A DNA stretch of 64,000 bases from Candidatus Dormiibacterota bacterium (GCA_027313505.1 DAHVDN010000006.1:24913-88912); one strand, 5' to 3'; positions 50,846 to 56,670 are shown, numbered from the stretch's first letter. The notes: a model not told the origin generated them from the letters alone. Translations and numbers: made by a program.

Positions 50846-50998
50846 CTACTTGGTCTCGCGATGGGCGGTGTGGCGTCGGCACCTACGGCAGTACTTGCGC
50901 AACTCCAGCCGATCCGGATCGTTGCGCTTGTTCTTCTGGGTGGTGTAGTTGCGCTCGCGGCACTCGCCGCACTGCAGGGTAATTATGGTGGCAGGCAC
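50846..50998 (-). CDS. rpmG: 50S ribosomal protein L33
   Basis: Manual translation [50 protein letters not shown] (50 aa, GTG start; not in ORF track). Confidence 0.94.
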
Positions 50999-51211
50999 CG
51001 GAAGACTCTCCAGACAAAAACGCCTGGCCGAGCCAGGCTTGCGCCAGTATATCTGTCCTGCCCCCCCCAGTCAATCTCGGGGCACCCTGGCACCATCCAG
51101 AGAGCGGACGCAGCCGCCTCATTCTGGCACCCCTCCAATTCCGAGGCCGGTTTCACGACTTCGTTGCAACCGGCCTCGGGTAGGGCGAAGGACCTGGGCG
51201 TTTCTAGAGGC

Positions 51212-51790
51212 GTGATCGTCAATCTGTCGACCCTTTCGGAAACCGGCCTAGACCAATGGCTGGCGGCGGAACTCCACCGCACCCTTGGTCCTCTGGGCGT
51301 TGGTGACCGCAGCTGGCCTGAGCTTCCACTTGCGCCGGGCTCTCCCGGGCGTCCGGGCTTCGACGGGAGCAGGTTCACCAGGATAGTCAGGCTCGGGGCC
51401 GGTGCGGTGGTGTTGACTGCGGCCGCGGGCGGCATGGGACTGGCATCTCAGGGACTGGGCCAGCGGACGATTTTCGGCGCTCCATCGATCTCATCGTCCT
51501 TGAACGGTCAGGTGCCGTCGAGCGCTGGCACGAACCGCGACACCAACGGCTCTTCTCTTGACCGAGCCGCCCTGCTTGGGCGCGGTCAGGGACGGGGCCC
51601 TACCGGTCGGCACCGATATGACGTGGGGCTTGTCCCGCCGCACGCGACCGGTTTGGCCGCGGGCCACTACGGGTCGGGCCACCTGCCCGCTGACGCTTCG
51701 AAGCGGCCCTCGGCAGCCGACTCCGCCAGCCACCGGACTCAGGGAGCCACTCAATTGCAACCGCCCTCAGGGAAGGAGACTCACCGGTGA
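51212..51790 (+). CDS. Single-TM protein, paralogue of the 54437-55020 product (anti-sigma-like)
   Basis: ETGLDQWLAAELHRTLGPLG then TM RLGAGAVVLTAAAGGMGLA; stop overlaps the GTG of the TadG-like gene (GTGA), supporting a real coupled CDS. Confidence 0.55.
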   Translation: MIVNLSTLSETGLDQWLAAELHRTLGPLGVGDRSWPELPLAPGSPGRPGFDGSRFTRIVRLGAGAVVLTAAAGGMGLASQGLGQRTIFGAPSISSSLNGQVPSSAGTNRDTNGSSLDRAALLGRGQGRGPTGRHRYDVGLVPPHATGLAAGHYGSGHLPADASKRPSAADSASHRTQGATQLQPPSGKETHR

Positions 51791-52878
51791 TACCTAGAAG
51801 CTCAAGATCGGAGCGCGGCCAGGTGACCGTGCTGTTCGCGATAGCAGCCGTGGCCCTGGTCGCGGTGGTCGGGCTGGCGGTTGACGCAGGCACGAGCTAT
51901 GTCGACCAGCGTTCCCTCCAGGCTGGGTCCGATACCGCCTCCACCACCGGTGCCAGCATGTTGGCCGCGGACTTCCACGCCTGTATCACTTCTGGGATAC
52001 TTCCCTATACGAACGCCAACGTCGCCTCGGCCGTGACCTCCATAGCCGACACCGCTGCGGCGGCATCCGGGAAGGTCACCAGCCTGCCGGTCGTGGACTA
52101 CGTGGAGTACGACGGCGCCACCCTGACAGACGTTGGAGCCGTCGCCTCCTACGGTGGACCGTTTTGCACCTCGAGCTCGGGACCGGGCACATGGGCCGGA
52201 CCAATGGGGGTCAGGGTCCTGGCAGGCAACACCCACCAGACACTCGTGCTCCAGATTGTCGGCATCCATAGGGCGAGCGAGCAGGCAACTTCAACCGCGG
52301 CCTTCGGAGTGATCACCTCCGGAACTGTCATCCCCTTCGTGGCCTGCGCCGCTGGGCCGCTGATAAATCCCGCAGACCCTGGACTGGTCGGCGGGCAGAT
52401 CGTCCCGGGCGACACGGTGCTGCTTGCGAACAAGAAGGGGTCTCTGGGTTGGGACACCAACTGCAACCAGGTCAAGGACGCCAACTTCAAGGGTTTCCTG
52501 CCCTGCCCACCAGGGTCCAAGCCGACGTGCACCATTGAGGTTGCCTCCGGGATCACATCGGGACCGTGGCAGGGCGGATCGGCCTGCGGTCAATGGCCTT
52601 CGGACATCGCGGTCGGAGACGTGGTGGATGTCCCCCTGGTATCGGCCGCCACCGGCGGTGGCTCCAATATCAACCTCGCGGTCCTGGGAATCATCCAGGT
52701 ACAGATCACAGTGAACAGCTGTTCCGGCGGCGGTGACTTCAATCTGGAGGGTGTGGTGCTCCAGCAAGGGACGGTCACCGGAAACATCCTCCTGTGCTCC
52801 ACCACTTCATCTCCCAACTGCGACAACGCCCCGTTTAACCTTCCCTCGGAGGCAACCGGTGTCCAGCTGGTCAACTAG
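51787..52878 (+). CDS. TadG-like pilus assembly/pseudopilin-type protein (Flp TadE/G-like N-terminus)
   Basis: RSERGQVTVLFAIAAVALVAVVGLAVDAGTSYVDQRSLQAGSDTASTTGASMLA. Confidence 0.8.
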   Translation: MIPRSSRSERGQVTVLFAIAAVALVAVVGLAVDAGTSYVDQRSLQAGSDTASTTGASMLAADFHACITSGILPYTNANVASAVTSIADTAAAASGKVTSLPVVDYVEYDGATLTDVGAVASYGGPFCTSSSGPGTWAGPMGVRVLAGNTHQTLVLQIVGIHRASEQATSTAAFGVITSGTVIPFVACAAGPLINPADPGLVGGQIVPGDTVLLANKKGSLGWDTNCNQVKDANFKGFLPCPPGSKPTCTIEVASGITSGPWQGGSACGQWPSDIAVGDVVDVPLVSAATGGGSNINLAVLGIIQVQITVNSCSGGGDFNLEGVVLQQGTVTGNILLCSTTSSPNCDNAPFNLPSEATGVQLVN

Positions 52879-53275
52879 AGGCGCCAAGCGCGGCCAGAGC
52901 CTGGTTGAGTTCGCCATTGTGCTGCCGATCCTCCTGCTCTTGATGTCCGGAGGAGTTGACCTCACCAGGGCGTTCTTCGTAGGGGTCCAGATCTCCGACG
53001 CCTCCCGCCAGGCCGCCCTGTACGCCGCCAACAACCCAGACAGCTACAACCAGGCGGCACTCCAGACCATCGCTGAGGAGAACGCCGGGAGCGGGCTGCT
53101 GGTTTGCCCGGGCGGCGATCTCCACGTAACCCTCAACCCAGACACGAGCGTCACCCCTGCCACCGCACCCTTCAATCAGCAGGTGACAGTCGTCTGTGCC
53201 CTTCCGATGCTCACTCCGGGCATCCCCGGGCCGGTAGACATCCGGGCCACCGCCACCATCCTAATCGTGCCTTGA
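52859..53275 (+). CDS. TadE-like pseudopilin
   Basis: AKRGQSLVEFAIVLPILLLLMSGGVDLTRAFFVGVQISDASRQAALYAANNPDS; GTG start overlaps end of previous CDS. Confidence 0.82.
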   Translation: MSSWSTRGAKRGQSLVEFAIVLPILLLLMSGGVDLTRAFFVGVQISDASRQAALYAANNPDSYNQAALQTIAEENAGSGLLVCPGGDLHVTLNPDTSVTPATAPFNQQVTVVCALPMLTPGIPGPVDIRATATILIVP

Positions 53276-53739
53276 AAGCGAGCAACGGCCGCCGCCGGCT
53301 GCGCCAACTGGAACTGGGGGCGACCATGGTGGAGTTCGCCCTAGTGGCGCCACTCTTCTTCGCCCTCCTGATAGGGATCTTCAGCGCCACAACCTATGTA
53401 TTCGAGGTCCAGGTGGCCAACGATTCAGCCCAGGCGGCAGCGAGGTGGGGAGTGGCGTCGGCGAACTTCGCTGGAGCCACCCCCGCGCCACAATGCTCCG
53501 GCGGATCACCCCCAGCCGGAATGGTGAGCGCGGCCCAGGCAGCCGCCGGTCCTCTCGCCAGCTCCATCACCGCAGCCACCATGACCGTCTCCGCGGCCAC
53601 CCCATCGGCGGCTTCGGGGCTGAACACCAGCACAGATGGCTGCCAGGTCGAGGTGACAGTTCCATACGTCAGCTTTGGGGGCTTCTTCGACCTCGGGCCC
53701 ACCCACATCACCGCCACCGCGGTCGACTACGTCACTTGA
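53272..53739 (+). CDS. TadE-like pseudopilin (second copy)
   Basis: LELGATMVEFALVAPLFFALLIGIFSATTYVFEVQVANDSAQAAARWGV; TTG start overlapping the previous stop. Confidence 0.8.
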   Translation: MKASNGRRRLRQLELGATMVEFALVAPLFFALLIGIFSATTYVFEVQVANDSAQAAARWGVASANFAGATPAPQCSGGSPPAGMVSAAQAAAGPLASSITAATMTVSAATPSAASGLNTSTDGCQVEVTVPYVSFGGFFDLGPTHITATAVDYVT

Positions 53740-53834
53740 GCGCTTCCACGCGGTGGGTTTTGTAACCGGTTCAGCACCGTCAACGGGCATTGGAGCCAGC
53801 TCACAATTGACGTGAGTCGTGCAAACTGAGGGGC

Positions 53835-54443
53835 GTGCCGAGGGACCAATACCGACCCGGGTCTGACGTCGACTTCGAACGCCTTTACAGGGACTGCCGC
53901 GGACGGCTGCTCCAGACCGTGACCGCTGTGGTCCGCGACCCCACAGAGGCGGAGGACTGTGTCCAGGAGACCTTTGAGCGGGCCTACGCTGCTTGGCCGA
54001 AGTTTCGGCCAGAGGCTCCAGCTGCCGCCTGGCTGCACCGGATCGCGATCAACGTGGCGATCTCACACCGCCGCCGGCAGAGTCTCCGGCAGGTTGGAGA
54101 GACTGTGCGGCGCCTTGGCAGACCCTCGCCCGCTCCCGACGCCGCCAGCTCGACCGACACCCTCGACCTGGTCGAGGTGCTGCGCCGGATCCCACCACGC
54201 CAGGCGGTCGTGATCGTGCTGCGGCACCTTCATGGCTACAGCAACAGAGAGATAGCGACGGCACTTGGCGTCCCCGAGCGGACGGTGGCCTCGCGGCTTG
54301 CGGCCGCAAAGCGTCGGCTGGTTGCCGACCTTGCTGCCTACCACCTGGAAGGACAAGAGGAAGGACAAGAGGAGTTGGTCCCGATCGTTTCTTCGGAGGC
54401 GCAGGTGCACCAACACCCGATGCGAGGTGCCCCCGATGTCTGA
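53835..54443 (+). CDS. ECF RNA polymerase sigma factor
   Basis: DFERLYRDCRGRLLQTVTAVVRDPTEAEDCVQETFERAYAAWPKFRPEAPAAAWLHRIAINVAISHRRR...EVLRRIPPRQAVVIVLRHLHGYSNREIATALGVPERTVASRLAAAKRRL. Confidence 0.92.
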   Translation: MPRDQYRPGSDVDFERLYRDCRGRLLQTVTAVVRDPTEAEDCVQETFERAYAAWPKFRPEAPAAAWLHRIAINVAISHRRRQSLRQVGETVRRLGRPSPAPDAASSTDTLDLVEVLRRIPPRQAVVIVLRHLHGYSNREIATALGVPERTVASRLAAAKRRLVADLAAYHLEGQEEGQEELVPIVSSEAQVHQHPMRGAPDV

Positions 54444-55020
54444 TCAATTCGACAGGTGGCTGGACGCTGAGCTGGTGACGAGCCTGTCTCAGACAGGGGC
54501 CGAGCCCGGGCCAACCGAGCCCACCTACAAGAGACTTCAGCGCCGAGCAGCGGCCGGTTCGGCGGCCCGACGGCGCATCTGGCACCGTCCCGTCACCCGC
54601 TTAGGGGTGGTCGTCATGGTGTCGGGCGCCCTGCTTGCCGGAGGGACCGCGGCGGCGGCCGTTCACGTGCTCGGACCAGCTCTCGGAAACCAATCGAGTT
54701 CGGGGCTGATCACACCCCGAGGGACATGCCAATCGCCCACCGTTTCGCCCACCGCCGGCCCCAGCAGTGAGGCCACGGCGGGATGCCAGAGCCCAGGGGC
54801 CAAGGGTGGGGTGGGGCGGGGCAGCCCTCATAAGACCCCCGGCTCACACCGCGCGTCCCCGTCCTCCTCGTCGAGTAAGACACACCCCACAGGAAGCCCG
54901 ACCCATCCAGGCCGCGCCGAGCATTCCCCCCACCCCGCTCACCCGACGCATCCGCCGACGCCCACCCACTCTGGCGGCAACGGCAACGCAGGGTCTGCAG
55001 GCCATTCCGGGAAGGGGTGA
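54437..55020 (+). CDS. Putative anti-sigma-like single-TM protein with His/Ser/Pro-rich C-terminal region
   Basis: Overlaps the ECF sigma 3' end; MSDQFDRWLDAELVTSLSQTG...RLGVVVMVSGALLAGGTAAAAVHVLG...HKTPGSHRASPSSSSSKTHPTGSPTHPGRAEHSPHPAHPTHPPTPTHSG. Confidence 0.7.
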
Positions 55021-55269
55021 GGGGTTTGAAGCGGTCGCTGTGCGTCTCCCTCCGGCTAGGGCGCTCTCCCTTTCCCTGGCGCGCTAACTCTCTGGAGGCG
55101 CCCGAATGGATCGGGGTCCCGCCTGTGTCAGTGGGTGGACACCTCTAACAAATTGAGCCCCTGCCGGGTGATTGGCGTTACTCTGGCGTTTCCCTATACG
55201 GCGCTATCGTGATCGCGCTGAAACGGCGCCAAACTTCAGACCGGCTACCGTAGTGGTCACAGGACACCT

Positions 55270-56670
55270 ATGAACCCTCAACCATCCGGACGAATCACCC
55301 AGTTCCCCGGCGAGCACCCGCGCGGTCGGTGGAGCACCGGCCGGTCCAAGGTGGTTCCTGGCTTCTGCCCGCCACAGCCGACTTCGCTGGACGAGCTGGG
55401 ACTTCCGTTCTCCTTTGTCTGCGAGCTGATCCTCAAGATCATGTACTTCAACGGCAACATCCTGGGCCGTGATGTCGCGGCCCGGGCCTGCTTCCCTTGG
55501 AGCGTAGCCGCCGAGGCCCTCAATTTCCTGGCATCTGAGGGCTACTGCGCCACCACAGGGATACGCGGCTCCCACGGTGCGGGCGCGGACTTCGCCGAGA
55601 GCCTTCAGTACCTGGTGACCAACGCTGGTCGGGAGCGAGCACGGGAGATCTTGGAACTCAACCAGTACTCAGGGCCCGCGCCGGTACACCTTGACGACTA
55701 TCTGGACAGCGCCCGGGCTCTGTCTGACGAGTCTCCGACAATCTCAGCGGAGGACCTAAAGCAGGCGCTGAACCATCTCGTGGTGCCGGCGCATCTGATA
55801 GAGGTGGTCGGAACCGCGCTCACAGGGCGCCAGGCCCTCTTCCTCTACGGTCCCCCCGGAAATGGGAAGAGTTCCATCGCCGATGCCTGCGCCACGGTGC
55901 TCGGCGATCCCATCTTCATCCCTCACGCGCTCTACGTTCATGGTGAGGTGATCCGGCTCTTCGACCCGGTGCACCACCGCCTGGTATCTGGCCCCCCAAT
56001 AGCGCATGACCGACGTTGGGTTCTGGTCTATCGACCCGTGGTTCATGCGGGAGGTGAGTTGAAGGGAAACGAGCTGGAGCTCGCCTTCGATCGAAGCCTG
56101 GGCTTCTACGAGGCTCCGCTCCAGCTCAAGGCGAACGGCGGGATCTTCCACGTCGACGACTTTGGCCGACAGATGATTCCGCCTCGGCAAATCCTCAACC
56201 GCCTGATCGTGCCGCTGGAGTCTGGACTCGACTACCTCAATGTGGCCAGAGCTGGAACAACGGTGAGTGTTCCCTATGCCACCGTCCTTCTGCTCTCGAC
56301 CAATCTCGATCCGGGCGAGTTGGTGGATGAGGCGTTTCTGCGTCGGGTTCGCTACAAGGCACTGGTCCCCGACCCAACCTTGGACGAATTCAAAACCATC
56401 TTCGAGCGAGTCTGCCAATCACGGGCGGTGCACTACAGCGACACCGCCGTCGAGTACTTGCTCAAAATGCACTATGAGCCGGTGGGCCGCCCTCTGAGAG
56501 GGTGCCACCCCAGAGACATCGTCGAGCAGATGGTGGCGACGGCCCGCTACCTGGGCGCCCGTCCCGAGCTCAGCCAGGAGATGATTGACAAGGTGGCCAA
56601 GGCCTATTTCTCGGATATCAGGCCGTCTTCAAGTCAGCACCTCGGGGGTAACGCGCGCACCCTCAGCTGA
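55270..56670 (+). CDS. AAA+ family ATPase (466 aa)
   Basis: Walker A ALFLYGPPGNGKSSIADA; Walker B-like GGIFHVDDFGRQ; sensor-1-like VLLLSTNLDP. Confidence 0.8.
   Translation: MNPQPSGRITQFPGEHPRGRWSTGRSKVVPGFCPPQPTSLDELGLPFSFVCELILKIMYFNGNILGRDVAARACFPWSVAAEALNFLASEGYCATTGIRGSHGAGADFAESLQYLVTNAGRERAREILELNQYSGPAPVHLDDYLDSARALSDESPTISAEDLKQALNHLVVPAHLIEVVGTALTGRQALFLYGPPGNGKSSIADACATVLGDPIFIPHALYVHGEVIRLFDPVHHRLVSGPPIAHDRRWVLVYRPVVHAGGELKGNELELAFDRSLGFYEAPLQLKANGGIFHVDDFGRQMIPPRQILNRLIVPLESGLDYLNVARAGTTVSVPYATVLLLSTNLDPGELVDEAFLRRVRYKALVPDPTLDEFKTIFERVCQSRAVHYSDTAVEYLLKMHYEPVGRPLRGCHPRDIVEQMVATARYLGARPELSQEMIDKVAKAYFSDIRPSSSQHLGGNARTLS

Follow-up and report, generated by a model that had tools for sequence, protein, structure and literature searches.

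A TadG–TadE–TadE operon with an adjoining ECF sigma gene and AAA+ ATPase gene in Candidatus Dormibacterota: a possible spare tip set for a Tad pilus

Introduction

The Kil pilus of Myxococcus xanthus, a Tad-like pilus, combines one shaft with four minor-pilin complexes that are encoded in separate clusters and serve as interchangeable tips (PMC12075869); its minor pilins are TadE/F/G-like, and its authors extend the idea of interchangeable tips to other Tad pili (PMC12075869). Here we describe a locus at positions 51212–56670 of a 64,000-nucleotide stretch of Candidatus Dormibacterota DNA (DAHVDN010000006.1:24913-88912, assembly GCA_027313505.1; hereafter the window), in which a TadG–TadE–TadE trio is followed by a gene for an extracytoplasmic function (ECF) sigma factor, a single-transmembrane (TM) protein and an AAA+ ATPase. 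We consider the chances about evenly balanced that this is a spare set of Tad tip proteins that is served in trans by machinery encoded elsewhere, with a dedicated ECF switch and an accessory AAA+ protein.

The source is a metagenome-assembled genome (G000; 3.18 Mb in 277 contigs, 92% complete, 2.7% contaminated). It is a draft with many contig ends, and all comparisons below draw on sequence and position among genomes that include no cultured member.

Results

An operon of minor-pilin genes followed by sigma factor and AAA+ genes

The locus comprises seven plus-strand genes, read as such in a preliminary description of the stretch and borne out by gene calls, in the order TM1, TadG, TadE1, TadE2, ECF, TM2 and AAA+ ATPase:

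51212–51790, plus strand: lead open reading frame (TM1), with an LDQWLAAEL motif, one hydrophobic segment and a low-complexity tail; a divergent relative of the 54436 protein
51787–52878, plus strand: TadG-type minor pilin, 363 residues (PF13400, 2.2e-7); orthologs 28–46% identical
52859–53275, plus strand: TadE-type minor pilin 1, 138 residues (PF07811, 5.4e-12)
53272–53739, plus strand: TadE-type minor pilin 2, 155 residues (PF07811, 2.3e-10)
53822–53827, plus strand: CAAACT, a −10-like hexamer 8–13 nt 5′ of the ECF start, read by eye
53835–54443, plus strand: ECF sigma factor (Pfam Sigma70_r2, 2e-17; Sigma70_r4_2, 5e-15)
54436–55020, plus strand: single-TM protein (TM2) bearing an FDRWLDAEL motif, a candidate ECF regulator whose gene overlaps that of the ECF factor
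55270–56670, plus strand: AAA+ ATPase with a winged-helix-like N-terminal part, of a family lacking a Pfam or NCBIfam model
51131–51235, no strand assigned: conserved non-coding block 5′ of the TadG operon, ACG..T(C/T)GTTGC-N10-CGGGTAG...GTTT...GTGA
50846–50998, minus strand: rpmG (ribosomal protein L33) by gene call, a border gene outside the locus proper that adjoins the trio in most relatives

The start-to-stop overlaps first described at 51787 (GTGA), 52859 (20 bases, 52859–52878) and 53272 (TTGA) are real in the sequence, and TM2, starting at ATG 54436, shares 8 bases with the end of the ECF gene. TadG, both TadE genes, ECF and AAA show a clear coding signal, TM1 and the TM2 half of low complexity a weak one. 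In profile searches both TadE proteins pass the curated PF07811 cut-off of 22.9 bits (46.1 and 40.8 bits), and TadG scores above that of PF13400 (31.5 bits, cut-off 22.3). Pfam confirms the assignments originally given to these three genes and to the ECF gene; the AAA protein returns only weak P-loop matches. Of the Sigma70 regions the ECF protein carries 2 and 4 only, and its match to TIGR02983 (2.4e-30) lies under the cut-off of that model.

The pilus machinery lies on other contigs

Profile searches found no Tad core gene (motor ATPase, TadB/C platform, Flp pilin) on the window's contig, extending to the whole contig what had been described for the window. The machinery is encoded elsewhere, one of the options first raised for this locus. 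Three T2SSE (TadA/CpaF-type) ATPases are present in the genome, two on contig C166 and one on C213. C166 carries genes for a histidine kinase, Flp, CpaB, CpaE, TadA, TadB, TadC, a DUF192-like protein and a second TadA/CpaF, with a TadE–TadG–TadE set at the opposite end; C213 carries an ECF-like gene, CpaB, CpaE, TadA, TadB, TadC, TadE, TadE and TadG. A single Flp_Fap pilin (C166) and a single prepilin peptidase (Peptidase_A24, C222) were detected genome-wide, and no secretin. TadE domains occur on C166, C213, C55, C25 and in the window; with C25 set aside, one detected Flp pilin, a lower bound in an assembly of this completeness, thus stands against at least four TadE/TadG sets.

Contig C25 (L017; 3.5 kb), which runs from rpmG through TadG–TadE–TadE to the start of an ECF gene, was considered as a second copy of the locus and rejected: its rpmG end is 99.6% identical to the sister-genus genome G143, and we therefore read it as bin contamination from a sister-genus species. 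Separately, a small Flp pilin at L064:6046-6258, in a Dehalococcoidia locus, falls narrowly under the Pfam cut-off, and Pfam-based Flp counts may be low.

The ECF–TM pair accompanies minor-pilin sets that differ

TadE domains are found in all 18 genomes of the GTDB family (2–12 per genome), mostly in several sets. The trio stands beside rpmG in the window and in G289, G302, G135, G275, G119 and G143. An ECF gene directly follows the trio in six family genomes (the window's, G135, G275, G151, G119 and G143), and the AAA gene comes next in turn after the ECF–TM pair in four (the window's, G135, G275 and G151), its position being uncheckable at contig ends in G119, G143, G239 and G289. The order TadG–TadE–TadE–ECF–TM–AAA is kept in the sister genus, so that the case which the preliminary description named as refuting its reading, a complete canonical tad locus nearby and no conservation of the ECF and AAA genes beside the trio, does not apply.

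In G301 and G302 the orthologous ECF–TM pair follows a different set, TadE–TadG–TadE (L221, L222, L225), while the rpmG-side trio of G302 lacks an ECF gene; in G306 the pair precedes TadG–TadE–TadE. The ECF tree places the Tad-linked factors of the sister genus and of G301/G302 together, apart from unlinked paralogs; that of G306 is separate, and the position of the window factor is poorly supported. A sigma gene lies within about 6 kb of 10 of 19 tip sets (five genomes), against an expected 9% or so (binomial 1.5e-6), a significance inflated by the relatedness of these non-independent genomes. Because the pair accompanies tip sets even where the set itself differs, we regard it, from sequence and position, as the likely switch of the tip set. 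The preliminary description had raised the possibility of an orphan, sigma-controlled surface or secretion module: an extra minor-pilin (tip) set describes the trio better than such an orphan module, and sigma control is suggested by the conserved neighborhood.

Other Tad loci of the family also have sigma genes close by. The second full tad locus opens with an ECF sigma gene in L014 (C213 of G000), and in G135 (C18), G143 (C47) and G301 (C51) a sigma domain lies about 5 kb from TadE in that locus. A further set in G301 (L245, contig C104, 1147–8221), consisting of a CpaB-like gene and TadG–TadE–TadE followed by a DnaB-like gene, has no motor gene nearby and may be a tip set carried by a mobile element.

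Two WLxxEL proteins flank the trio and the sigma gene

ECF paralogs throughout the family have, at almost all sites examined, a TM-type protein next in order. It opens with a short motif ([FL][DE]xWLxxEL or DLDRLLxxEL) and continues with a Pro/Arg linker, a single hydrophobic helix and a tail of low complexity. TM2 belongs here, being recovered at 5e-10 by a family hidden Markov model (HMM) built without the window member. It contains no zinc anti-sigma motif (HxxxCxxC) and no Cys before the TM segment, and matches no Pfam or NCBIfam family above cut-off; its conserved position next to the ECF gene makes it a candidate membrane anti-sigma factor.

TM1 was at first viewed as a spurious open reading frame, since it has no match in the sister genus, is not reached by the TM2-family HMM and shows weak coding signal. 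That view was overturned by a homolog in the same genus (G289; 37% identical and likewise lying between rpmG and TadG) and by a motif count: [FLIMV][DE]xWLxx[EQ]L has just two occurrences in the 64-kb window, one in TM1 and one in TM2, where 0.02 are expected per shuffled window. In G307, too, the reading frame immediately 5′ of TadG contains FERWLELEL and a hydrophobic stretch. These counterparts and the motif count support the single-TM lead protein as first described, and make the symmetry of two similar one-TM proteins a real one.

The AAA+ family recurs beside Tad genes

The AAA+ protein, whose nearest named relatives are Candidatus Dormiibacterota records, belongs to a family for which neither Pfam nor NCBIfam has a matching model; its members are spread over Chloroflexota, Acidobacteriota, some Acidimicrobiales and others. 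Within the window's GTDB family there are two copies, 56% identical, of which only the rpmG-side copy is Tad-linked. In Dehalococcoidia the AAA gene is divergent from genes for a vWA protein, ECF, CpaB, CpaE, TadA, TadB and TadC (with Flp in one locus, L064); in three further GTDB families of the phylum a CpaF-type ATPase gene comes next after it; and a contig assigned by binning to Nitrospirae has it divergent from genes for Flp, TadE, TadE and CpaB. On a tree of 117 members Tad-linkage requires 6 changes, at least 5 of them forced by starred branches, and falls in five separate places. Such linkage is beyond chance, because only about 3% of G000 is estimated to lie within 9 kb of Tad genes. 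Given its recurrence in five places of the tree and its lack of a Pfam model, we regard the family as a candidate accessory ATPase of Tad systems.

The predicted model shows an AAA+ fold (predicted local distance difference test, pLDDT, 86) whose nearest solved folds are 8p49, Lon, Mg-chelatase BchI and NorQ, at TM-scores of only 0.3–0.5 by query length and 12–18% identity; a PDB sequence search with the family gave mostly P-loop-centered matches to remote AAA proteins. Against the MoxR-type model bpMoxR the protein scores 22.1 bits, under the cut-off of 27, which places it outside MoxR/NorQ by that measure. A role in anti-phage defence (Iet system) was rejected, the IetA match covering only ~55 residues around the P-loop and not the full length.

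Two further observations concern relatives of this protein. In the Dehalococcoidia loci L060, L064 and L067 the gene for a protein with vWA and Ig domains separates the tad/ECF cluster from the divergent AAA gene, and the ECF factor there is closest to the BldN-family model. Two AAA relatives (L062:4392-5795 and L070:9839-11242) have an N-terminal segment that by eye resembles the MshEN/T2SSE N-terminal domain found in pilus ATPases (GERLIRAGVVTEGQVENALKEQ...GGRLGQNLARLG), with no Pfam match to this start.

Upstream elements

The non-coding block at 51131–51235 is kept in seven loci (L017, L052, L055, L219, L220, L240 and L241) with invariant ACG, GTTGC, CGGGTAG, GTTT and GTGA, and accompanies TadG even in L220, where rpmG is 1.3 kb off. 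It has no Rfam match and its fold z-scores run from +1.0 to −2.7 relative to shuffles; we do not claim a structured RNA leader. Just 5′ of the ECF start, a −10-like hexamer (gCAnACT or gCAGAAT, by eye) is present in 11 of the 14 ECF paralogs compared. The ECF gene may accordingly be one that a housekeeping factor reads without a leader; any ECF control would then have to be sought at the promoter of the TadG operon.

Discussion

We propose that the TadG–TadE–TadE operon is one of several alternative minor-pilin sets of this bacterium, whose products would be processed by the single prepilin peptidase of the genome and mounted on the Tad/Flp pilus of the one Flp pilin by machinery from the other contigs. 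The ECF factor and the overlapping WLxxEL protein, its candidate anti-sigma, would form a switch timing production of this tip set; the WLxxEL protein heading the tip operon (TM1) could offer the sigma factor a second contact point, and the AAA+ ATPase may act as an accessory remodeller of the pilus or of its regulator. We infer the tip function, the sigma control and the anti-sigma and ATPase roles from gene content and conserved neighborhood.

Several observations weigh against this proposal. A comparison of the upstream regions found no promoter motif common to the three units (ECF gene, TadG operon and AAA gene), and the AAA gene has a separate upstream region of 249 bp. Some tip sets are without a sigma gene, and many family genomes hold a second ECF–TM pair that is not Tad-linked. 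Of the AAA family, 84 of the 117 members are not near Tad genes. The predicted model of TadG is unusable (pLDDT 35) for comparison with the pilin-like folds of a Kil-type tip heterotrimer, and the single Flp pilin is only a minimum, because short Flp pilins can miss the Pfam cut-off.

Of the alternatives, the one that survives best would keep the trio as a real spare tip set and make the ECF–TM pair and the AAA gene mere neighbors with other targets; we hold this to be possible, though doubtful. A close ECF–TM paralog does lie among unrelated genes in several family genomes, but the Tad-linked ECF lineage remains beside a tip set even where the set differs. The trio occurs without an ECF gene in G302 and G310, whereas sigma genes are enriched near tip sets; and the ECF and AAA genes each have their own upstream stretch and −10-like hexamer, yet the AAA family meets Tad genes in five separate places of its tree. 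It is improbable that the trio is no pilus part at all and instead builds a complex at the cell surface or in the envelope, its TadE/TadG-like proteins held by their N-terminal helices: such a complex would suit the absence of a motor gene in cis and the C-terminal part of TadG, which has no domain match in Pfam, but motor genes, Flp pilin and prepilin peptidase are all present in the genome, and the TadE proteins begin with the G-Q/A-x-x-VEFA typical of their family. Very improbable, finally, is a decayed remnant of a full tad locus after loss of its motor genes, since, although the Dehalococcoidia AAA relatives adjoin full tad loci with an ECF gene, every gene here is an intact open frame, several genera of the family have the motor-less trio, the tree does not nest the window AAA among Dehalococcoidia AAA proteins, and no relative was seen with a motor gene at this site.

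A spare tip set with its own switch would bear on wider questions. Work on Myxococcus predation has shown that Tad tips can be interchangeable; should the tip sets of Dormibacterota have a sigma switch, tip choice would become a measurable transcriptional decision, and the repeated placement of the AAA+ gene beside Tad genes would point to a missing accessory part of pili in Chloroflexota-type bacteria. The broad form of this idea, that Dormibacterota swap the tips of one Tad pilus through dedicated ECF switches and that the AAA+ family is also an unrecognised accessory Tad ATPase, not confined to Chloroflexota, whose target is the pilus subunits or else the sigma/anti-sigma pair, is speculative and we think it unlikely to hold in full.

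Comparison with known systems

By structure comparison the AAA+ protein resembles MoxR/NorQ, Mg-chelatase and Lon-type ATPases and Pyrococcus Q8U0N8 (8p49) in its predicted AAA+ fold, and the vWA gene divergent from the AAA gene in Dehalococcoidia may be counted as a further likeness; it differs from these ATPases in its winged-helix-like N-terminal part and in the low TM-scores and identity. Systems of ECF factor and membrane anti-sigma share the overlap of the sigma gene by a single-TM protein gene, but the partner here, TM2, lacks both the HxxxCxxC zinc motif and a Pfam or NCBIfam match above cut-off. A dedicated regulator gene beside Tad genes has a counterpart in the two-component control of flp/tad clusters, for example in Pectobacterium (PMC3767616), where the regulators are a kinase and a response regulator rather than an ECF sigma factor. 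A limited literature search for ECF control of TadE/TadG found no report, which does not exclude existing ones. Canonical tad/flp loci (TadE, TadF and TadG with TadA, TadB, TadC, CpaB, CpaE and Flp) share the TadE/TadG proteins and the operon-like overlaps; they hold motor ATPase, TadB/C and Flp in the same locus, whereas motor, Flp pilin and CpaB/CpaE are all absent in cis from the window locus, and the machinery is on other contigs.

For the proposed tip role, the closest known parallel is the Kil pilus. The locus differs from the Kil tip clusters in its attached ECF–TM pair and AAA+ gene, no sigma factor being mentioned in PMC12075869. The likeness to those clusters (kilLMN; PMC12075869) lies in minor-pilin clusters of three genes each, of which a genome has several, mostly away from motor genes, beside one major pilin: the window trio is such a stand-alone cluster in a genome with several sets, and the one Flp_Fap pilin and one Peptidase_A24 found there would, as in Myxococcus, serve more than one of them.

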